Below are positions 26,997 through 28,407 of a DNA stretch of 33,882 bases, one piece after another. A model generated the notes under the pieces. The model saw only the letters and a program-made list of their open reading frames with translations, made no database searches and was not told where the DNA came from. Each line of letters starts with the position of its first letter. Position 1 is the first letter of the stretch. The translations under genes and the position numbers were made by a program. The stretch is from Bacillota bacterium (GTDB lineage Bacteria; Bacillota; Limnochordia; Limnochordales; ZCTH02-B6), in the NCBI GenBank assembly GCA_017577945.1, contig PKQS01000016.1, forward strand, positions 1-33,882. Direction: 5' to 3'.

Positions 26997-27617
26997 ATGG
27001 ACGACGGACGTGCGAGCCCAACCGAACAGCCGCCGCCGGCGGAGCCGGCCAAGCCACTGGCCTCCGTTTACGACTTGCAGGAATGGCGCCGGCGGCTCAG
27101 GGCGCGCGGCCGGCGCAGCCGGCGGGAAACGCCGCGCCGGGGCGGGCCCTATTACGGGGACTACTTCGGCTACGGCTATTACGGCTACTACGGCGGCTAC
27201 TCGGGCGGCTACTACAGCCGCTACTACGGTGGGCAGCGGAAGGGGCCGGACTACGCCTGGCGCGACCCGCTGGGGCCAGAGGCGTACGCCGCCCCGCGCC
27301 GCGCAGCGGCCCCGGGTGACAAGCCCGCCGCCGGGGGCCGCGGCGGCGCGCGCCGCCGTTCGGTTGTCACGCTGCTGCCGGCCGTGCGCGCACAGCTCCT
27401 GCGCCGCCGGCGCGCCCTGGCGCTGGCCGTGGTAGCGTGCCTGATGATCGGCGCGCTGCTGCTGGGGCGCAGCGTGCTGGCGCGGGAGTGGGGACCGGTG
27501 GCCGACCCGCCAGGGACGTCGCCCGTACGGCTGGCGGACGCCGCGGAAAACGCGGCGGACGACCCGGCCGCTGGCGATTTTTTCCCGCATGATGGGACGG
27601 AGCGCGGTCCACAATAG
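26997..27617 (+). CDS. Tyr/Gly-rich single-pass membrane protein of unknown function
   Basis: I do not recognise this 206-residue protein. Residues 1-45 are Pro- and Arg-rich. Residues 50-79 are a tract with 13 Tyr in about 29 residues, mixed with Gly (repeats such as GYYGYYGGY and GGYYSRYYGG). A basic stretch (residues 115-139, RRR and RRRR) precedes one hydrophobic segment (about 140-160, LALAVVACLMIGALLLG). The tail of about 45 residues is acidic. By the positive-inside rule the Tyr/Gly tract would be cytoplasmic and the tail outside. The ATG at 26997-26999 has GGGGAGGT ten bases upstream. It diverges from rex, and its stop is followed within ten bases by the structured RNA candidate. Confidence 0.7.
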   Translation: MDDGRASPTEQPPPAEPAKPLASVYDLQEWRRRLRARGRRSRRETPRRGGPYYGDYFGYGYYGYYGGYSGGYYSRYYGGQRKGPDYAWRDPLGPEAYAAPRRAAAPGDKPAAGGRGGARRRSVVTLLPAVRAQLLRRRRALALAVVACLMIGALLLGRSVLAREWGPVADPPGTSPVRLADAAENAADDPAAGDFFPHDGTERGPQ

Positions 27618-27624
27618 CGACTGA

Positions 27625-27926
27625 GGAGTTCACGACGACCGGGCGAAGTACCCAGAGGTCGCTGTAGGTGCTGGCGGCATCTGCGTCGGTCTCCGAGATC
27701 GACGCAGGTCCCGGCCGGTATGTACAGCGGCTGAGCGAAGACTGCCTGAGGTTGTCGGCGGGATTCGTCTCGGCCGGGAGTCGGTCGAGACGGGTTGCGT
27801 CGGGGATCTCCGGTGGTCGATCAAAGATCGCTTCAAGCCTATAATGGATCGACGACGGCGGCGCGACTGCCGTCGCCGGTTCAGACAAGGTTTGAAGCGG
27901 TCGGCGACAAAGTCGTCGTGAACTCT
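27625..27926 (+). ncRNA. Candidate structured RNA of about 300 bases, unrecognised family
   Basis: No credible gene is seen between 27618 and 28053. GAGTTCACGACGAC (27626-27639) pairs exactly with its inverse at 27912-27925 and closes the element. Inside, successive helices can be drawn: 27658-27666 with 27723-27731, continued by 27679-27692 with 27696-27709 (14 bp, loop CCG); 27740-27746 with 27750-27756; 27762-27776 with 27782-27796 (15 bp); 27798-27804 with 27809-27815; 27826-27840 with 27888-27902 (15 bp), enclosing 27845-27861 with 27867-27883. About 17 pairs are G-U on the plus strand, and only one mismatch would become G-U on the minus strand, so a plus-strand transcript is indicated. 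TCTCTTTT follows the closing helix. It starts right after the stop codon of the Tyr/Gly-rich protein. I see no SRP, RNase P, tmRNA or 6S signature. This is manual folding. Confidence 0.55.
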
Positions 27927-28038
27927 CTTTTCGCGTTTACCGAGCAGCGCCCGGAGACGGTCCCCGCCGCTTGCCCTCCAGGCCCGGGCCCGAGTTGATG
28001 TCCCCTGGTCAGCGGGCGGGTACGAGTTGACGCCGCCC

Positions 28039-28069
28039 GGCGCCGCGCGAGCGTCACCCGCGCGGCGCC
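28039..28069 (-). terminator. GC-rich hairpin at the end of spoVAE
   Basis: GGCGCCGCGCG (28039-28049) and CGCGCGGCGCC (28059-28069) form a perfect 11-bp stem with a 9-base loop, overlapping the spoVAE stop. There is no T-run on the minus strand, so termination is uncertain. A second hairpin, GGGCGG with CCGCCC, lies next to it at about 28015-28038. The rest of 27927-28038 holds nothing I recognise. Confidence 0.4.
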
Positions 28070-28407
28070 GACACCAGCGCCGCCACCGTGGAAAACAAGA
28101 CGCCCGCGGCGATGCCTAAGCCGACCAGCTCCAGCGTCCCCGTCAGCAGCCCCTCCCACCCGAGCCGGCGCATCTCTTCCATGACGCCGCGCGTGATGGC
28201 CGCGCCGAAGCCGCTGACCGGCAGCAGCGCTCCCGCCCCGGCGAACTCCACCAGCCGATCATAGAGCCCGAAGCCGTTGACGATGGCGCCCGTCACCGTC
28301 AGCCCCACCAAGAGATGTCCCGGCGTCAGCTGCTGAAACTTCAGGGAGATGTACTCCATCAGCGCGCAAATGAGCCCGCCGACGACGAACGCCCAAAAGT
28401 AAATCAT
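28054..28407 (-). CDS. spoVAE: Stage V sporulation protein AE (SpoVAEB)
   Basis: The 117-residue membrane protein has about four hydrophobic segments and belongs to the SpoVAC/SpoVAEB family. The SpoVA channel moves dipicolinic acid into the forespore and releases it in germination. Family stretches are LTPGHLLVGLTVTGAIVNGFGLYDRL (about residues 27-52) and PVSGFGAAITRGVMEE (about 63-78). GGAGGGAC precedes the ATG. It lies 17 bases behind spoVAD, the order C-D-E found in many spore formers. It shows that the organism, or its ancestor, makes endospores. Confidence 0.93.
   Translation of the reverse strand: MIYFWAFVVGGLICALMEYISLKFQQLTPGHLLVGLTVTGAIVNGFGLYDRLVEFAGAGALLPVSGFGAAITRGVMEEMRRLGWEGLLTGTLELVGLGIAAGVLFSTVAALVSAPRG

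Follow-up and report, generated by a model that had tools for sequence, protein, structure and literature searches.

The window, 33,882 nucleotides of contig PKQS01000016.1 from a Bacillota bacterium of the class Limnochordia, contains a structured element between a Tyr/Gly-rich open reading frame and a convergent gene of the SpoVAC/SpoVAEB family. On the plus strand, the element folds into a closing stem, P0, that encloses a small hairpin and three long arms. The outermost pairs of this fold place the limits of the RNA at positions 27617 and 27934. The features of the locus are:

26997–27617, plus strand: upstream Tyr/Gly-rich open reading frame with a predicted membrane segment, outside the RNA; no Pfam family matched it.
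27587–27616, plus strand: candidate sigma-G/sigma-F-type forespore promoter, with GCATG at 27587–27591, 18 nt, and CACAATA at 27610–27616; it overlaps the upstream gene's stop codon.
27617–27639, plus strand: 5' strand of closing stem P0, with a perfect core at 27626–27639, from the fold and the inverted repeat.
27641–27653, plus strand: small hairpin in place of the presumably lost arms A and B, from the fold read against the sister genome G003; the first linker, GGGCGAAG, is retained.
27657–27732, plus strand: arm C, from the fold and covariation; matched by model R1 at 27650–27741.
27737–27822, plus strand: arm D, from the fold; by reading, the counterpart of arm D of G003.
27826–27902, plus strand: arm E, matched by model R2 at 27815–27915 with 77.6 bits.
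27912–27934, plus strand: 3' strand of closing stem P0, with a perfect core at 27912–27925, then TTTT at 27928–27931.
28054–28407, minus strand: gene of the SpoVAC/SpoVAEB family, convergent with the RNA; its position marks it as SpoVAE, and it served as the syntenic anchor.

The minimum fold of the plus strand between positions 27610 and 27940 has an energy of −205 kcal/mol, and none of 100 dinucleotide shuffles (mean −134.06, sd 6.01, z −11.8) folded as low. The minus strand of the element folds less stably, at −139.8 kcal/mol (z −5.9). These values agree with the first-pass annotation, made from the letters alone, which had proposed a plus-strand RNA of long internal hairpins closed by a 14-bp perfect terminal inverted repeat. 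The repeat was found at 27626–27639 and 27912–27925, with the reported 272 nt between its halves. The plus-strand fold contains 125 pairs, 23 of which are G-U, and six single mismatches, one of which (A-C) becomes G-U when read on the minus strand. The plus-strand excess of G-U pairs noticed earlier holds, but its count of about 17 against one differs from ours. The placement of the element after the stop codon of the Tyr/Gly-rich gene (27615–27617) was also correct, except that the perfect core of P0 begins 8 bases 3' of the codon and not ten. SpoVAC/SpoVAEB-family and SpoVAD genes are located on the other flank, where spoVA genes had been reported. The upstream gene has an N-terminal stretch that is alike within the family (window 26997–27617; loci L031, L035, and L036). 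In G002–G004, it continues into a part that by eye resembles solute-binding proteins, which is missing from the Tyr/Gly-rich version of the window.

The genome of origin has a single copy of the RNA (the sole match at a threshold of E 0.001), and the second copy named beforehand as a sign of a miniature transposon was not seen. In a blastn search of 100 genomes, including the genome of origin, a contig of G001 was nearly identical (99.4% along 6.3 kb), and G003 gave a match at 68%. The convergent SpoVAE gene, used as an anchor, located the RNA at the equivalent place in G002 and G004, and the RNA is syntenic in the four sister genomes G001–G004. The closing stems of the close relatives have diverged in sequence and kept their complementarity. 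Within the closing stem, the RNAs of G002, G003, and G004 carry arms A to E, five in all, whereas that of the window has arms C, D, and E only. The window RNA retains the first linker, and a tiny hairpin stands where arms A and B would be; the best reading is that this copy has lost two arms. G000 and G001 (L032) share the 99.4% identity despite being placed in different genera, which looks like an odd split.

Searches with models of single arms showed that the RNA is widespread. Model R1, built on arm C, matched 17 of the 72 genomes of the class at E 0.1 or better, five of them from the window's own family. At an E threshold of 0.01, model R2, built on arm E, found the RNA in 166 of the 398 phylum genomes and in 117 of 267 genera, with many matches below 1e-15; this search used stricter filters, and the individual matches referred to here are the best ones listed. 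A scan of named genomes with a narrow pattern returned at least 14 records, all Bacillota by title, including Desulfofundulus australicus DSM 11792 and Pelotomaculum terephthalicicum JT. The phylum name used here follows from these titles and from one record that matches a sampled genome (L115 and L089). Viral contigs gave no matches with two narrow patterns, and plasmids and phages gave none with one clostridial copy as the query; on the strength of these searches, a phage or plasmid element was rejected. Among the matches listed, genomes G103, G402, G372, and G440 have two or more copies, and both copies of G103 carry a promoter-like motif.

The pairing of the arms is maintained by compensatory changes. 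In arm C, aligned from four sequences, 11 of the 35 pairs have changes on both sides, and two cells are broken or gapped. In arm E, both-side changes occur in 30 of 38 pairs among 14 divergent sequences aligned with MAFFT, an alignment that was not fitted to the model. An alignment of 104 arm E sequences, which was fitted to the model and derives from 100 loci (in four cases, one copy supplies two arms as separate rows), has both-side changes in 35 of 38 pairs, including all 32 pairs of the arm proper, and 95.8% of its cells are paired. Its covariation score is 0.674, compared to 0.270 after shuffling and at most 0.160 when slid. The first-pass annotation had held that homologues without covariation would speak against a structured RNA; covariation is present, and it is beyond reasonable doubt that the RNA structure is conserved by compensatory changes. 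We regard it as practically certain that the copies form a real RNA family.

The architecture of the family was determined from 129 folded copies, comprising 80 loci from the R2 phylum matches listed and 49 others, some of which are duplicates. A closing stem and exactly five arms, together about 410 nt long, are present in 105 copies; of the others, 12 have four arms, three have seven or eight, and nine lack a multiloop of four or more. The median lengths of the arms in the five-arm copies are 37, 47, 76, 103, and 74 nt. The tip of arm E is a GNRA loop in 84 of the 105 five-arm copies, and 87 of the 181 hairpin loops of their arms D are GNRA, 61 of which are GAGA. The linkers between the arms are purine-rich and conserved, and those on either side of arm E have the consensus sequences G(A/G)GC-AAAG and GGAGC-GAAG. 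A median of about 73% of the bases are paired, and inspection of the consensus of arm E and its flanking linkers revealed no long conserved unpaired seed. The sequences of the arms drift, and their shape, number, and order are kept. In all 60 copies tried, out of 120, the plus strand folds lower than the minus strand; the median difference is 108 kcal/mol. Reading the linkers (GCGAAG...GGAGC) as a kink-turn was rejected: the register in which the covarying helix ends are preserved gives a 3x3 purine loop instead. Arm D is branched into two hairpins in G005 and G008 (L076 and L075), as in many clostridial copies. In several copies, the arm C model also matches arm E and the arm E model arm C, so internal duplication may have enlarged the RNA.

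The stretches upstream of the RNA, each about 84 nt long, were analyzed in 119 copies whose fold has four, five, or seven arms and whose locus extends far enough upstream, reduced to 107 by removing those that shared 8-mers; copies with other folds were left out. The half-site GG..A..TA is present in 93 of the 107 copies, compared to 25.9 in dinucleotide-preserving shuffles, and in the 91 copies that have it near the start of the RNA, aligned, the second box, GNATA, ends 14 nt upstream. A strict pair of boxes, of the sigma-F/sigma-G promoter form, is present in 53 of the 107 upstream stretches; shuffles that preserve only composition contain 0.86, with a maximum of 5. The reverse strand has two such pairs, and random stretches of the same loci have three in 321. 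The csfB promoter is printed as GTATA and GGGGAGGCTA (PMC4383634). Only five of the 107 copies have the narrow textbook sigma-G form, in which the −10 box contains CAT (0.37 in shuffles), and four have a sigma-A-like pair (2.1 in shuffles). In a control set of SASP genes, covering 27 of 30 loci with the remaining three incomplete, the strict pair was found at four, which does not clear the set's own shuffles (mean 0.82, maximum 4). The site of the window, GCATG-N18-CACAATA, fits the loose pattern and fails the strict one; it resembles the GCTTA-N17-CACAATA that precedes one of the genome's own SASP genes. At the other end of the RNA, a T-run follows the 3' strand of P0 in 36 of 119 copies against a background of 14%, and a terminator formed by P0 and the T-run is weakly suggested. 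Transcription of the RNA family in the forespore is very probable.

The RNA co-occurs with sporulation genes. SpoIVA is present in 336 of the 398 phylum genomes scanned with R2, and the RNA was found in 161 of these 336 compared to five of the 62 SpoIVA-negative genomes (Fisher 4e-10, by a test that ignores kinship). When only high-quality genomes are considered, the numbers are 148 of 307 and two of 49. All five SpoIVA-negative carriers have SpoVAC/SpoVAEB genes, so that SpoIVA or SpoVA genes are present in 166 of 166 carrier genomes. Because about half of the SpoIVA-positive genomes have no match, the RNA is dispensable for sporulation in general. The neighbors of the RNA vary widely, and spoVA, spoVT, and spoIVA are among them. 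Ten neighbor proteins were scanned, giving six SpoVT, three SpoVAE or SpoVAC, and one Rex; they were chosen by hand, and the counts are no measure of enrichment. In G361, G422, and G114, which belong to one family, SpoIVA is convergent with the RNA by coordinates. Forespore control of spoVT and of the spoVAC operon is reported for Clostridioides difficile (PMC7438776). The link to sporulation that had been suggested for the window element is supported by promoter class, co-occurrence with sporulation genes, and some of the neighbors. The alternative suggestion, a link to the neighboring protein, is unsupported, since the relatives adjoin many different genes.

The element had also been called a new structured RNA, which the covariation and the Rfam results uphold. 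The Rfam search proposed for the element, performed with Rfam 15 at gathering thresholds, gave no RNA-family match to it, only a tRNA elsewhere in the window, and no matches in 13 loci of relatives; below gathering, the window gave chance matches only. At E 0.5, 12 clostridial loci gave T-box and c-di-AMP leaders only, none of them at the RNA. A search of the main texts of open-licence papers did not find the family in print. Neither large orphan RNAs nor forespore RNAs are new as such. OLE RNA differs in architecture from the closing-stem-plus-arms shape. It is described as about 600 nt long, present in sporulating anaerobic Bacillota, and correlated with sporulation genes (PMC11332333). The RNA described here is likewise large, ornate, and correlated with sporulation genes in Bacillota; however, no Rfam model matched any scanned copy. 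CsfG, a forespore sRNA of Bacillaceae, is 136 nt long, lies in the ylbG-ylbH region, and has CU-rich loops; by this description (PMC3574147), it differs in size and place, the two points compared.

Bvs196, a Bacillus velezensis forespore sRNA from the hinT-ecsA region, deserved closer comparison. PMC9147052 describes it as 294 nt long, with a folding energy of −82 kcal/mol, and as forespore-specific and dependent on sigma-F/sigma-G by experiment. The same source uses two names, S357 and S547, for its B. subtilis homologue, and S547 is assigned to CsfG in PMC8216469. The orthologous regions resemble our family in being conserved, in carrying the strict promoter pair in three of five genomes (none on the opposite strand), and in containing a repeated linker-like motif. 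However, the window RNA is located between the Tyr/Gly-rich reading frame and SpoVAE, not between hinT and ecsA, and no hinT-ecsA pair was noticed by eye among the listed neighbors of the relatives. Five of 10 HIT-gene loci hold the ecsA-hinT region, with the ecsA genes recognized by eye. When R2 was run on the 10 loci with filters off, its best match inside that region, in one of the five, was at chance level (7.5 bits, E 7.6). The five orthologous regions also lack a strong common fold (RNAalifold −11.5). Membership of the Bvs196 type was rejected, as there is neither an R2 match above chance nor a shared fold, and none of the known families tested contains the window RNA. In the ecsA-hinT region (L242, L244, L245, L246, and L248), a motif resembling AAATGAGGTGTNTGTYAAAGAC occurs as many as three times, and its AAAG/CGCAG ends recall the linkers of the RNA family. 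A distant link between the Bvs196-type region and the family is possible at the level of these motifs.

We propose that the window element belongs to a family of large structured RNAs of sporulating Bacillota that has no catalogue entry, is likely transcribed by sigma-F/sigma-G RNA polymerase in the forespore, and would serve there as a rigid scaffold; the probability of this reading as a whole is about 0.55. We infer that the RNA is a stand-alone forespore transcript. It would begin just 5' of the closing stem and end just 3' of it. The arms might then radiate from a multi-helix junction, the GNRA tips and internal loops could bind spore proteins or more copies of the RNA, and the resulting particle could stay in the spore core; these last three steps are guesses. 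The idea of a scaffold is based on the drift of the arm sequences while their shape, number, and order persist, on the conservation of GNRA tips and purine loops, and on arm E being without a long conserved unpaired seed. Taken separately, a role as a scaffold or particle rather than as a base-pairing regulator has roughly even odds. A more specific picture, in which the RNA is a novel type of spore constituent, is speculative: a star-shaped, forespore-only RNA particle, retained during much of the evolution of Bacillota, would be packed in the dormant core, use its arm tips to oligomerize or to bind proteins, and aid survival or waking.

The strongest competing explanation is a forespore base-pairing regulator similar to Bvs196, which would use its linkers or loops to pair with mRNAs. 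This is the presumed mode of action of the known forespore RNAs of Bacillus, such as Bvs196 (PMC9147052), and the single-stranded linkers of the GRGC-AAAG type are conserved; however, most bases of the RNA are paired, arm E and its linkers offer no long seed, and the arms keep their shape rather than their sequence. A regulator is possible but doubtful. A cis-acting element of a neighboring gene, such as a long leader, a 3' UTR, or a processing site, is improbable. It would suit the six scanned loci, from two families, in which spoVT lies directly downstream of the RNA on the same strand. However, neighbors vary widely, and the downstream neighbor is convergent in 70 of 97 copies. The upstream neighbor is on the opposite strand in 62 of the 107 copies for which one was called, and therefore the RNA is not merely a 3' UTR. 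A miniature transposon, or another mobile element bounded by inverted repeats, would explain the perfect repeat, the two copies 2.6 kb apart in L115 (1344–1441 and 3957–4054), and the several copies in some genomes among the matches listed. This is extremely unlikely given the single copy in the genome of origin, the synteny in four sister genomes, the strand-specific folding and covariation, and the empty searches of viral contigs (two narrow patterns) and of plasmids and phages (one clostridial query). A retron msr-msd RNA, which shares the closing stem around hairpins, is equally unlikely, because the window's contig has no reverse transcriptase, as previously stated, and the PF00078 match in the genome is on another contig and scores 24.4 bits, below the cut-off of 29.6.

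An RNA of about 410 nt with a near-constant architecture and a forespore-type promoter thus occurs in 117 of 267 sampled genera without an entry in Rfam. The model provides annotators with a handle on intergenic regions of many Bacillota genomes. If the proposed reading is true, the family would be a large orphan RNA tied to a single cell type and a single stage of development.
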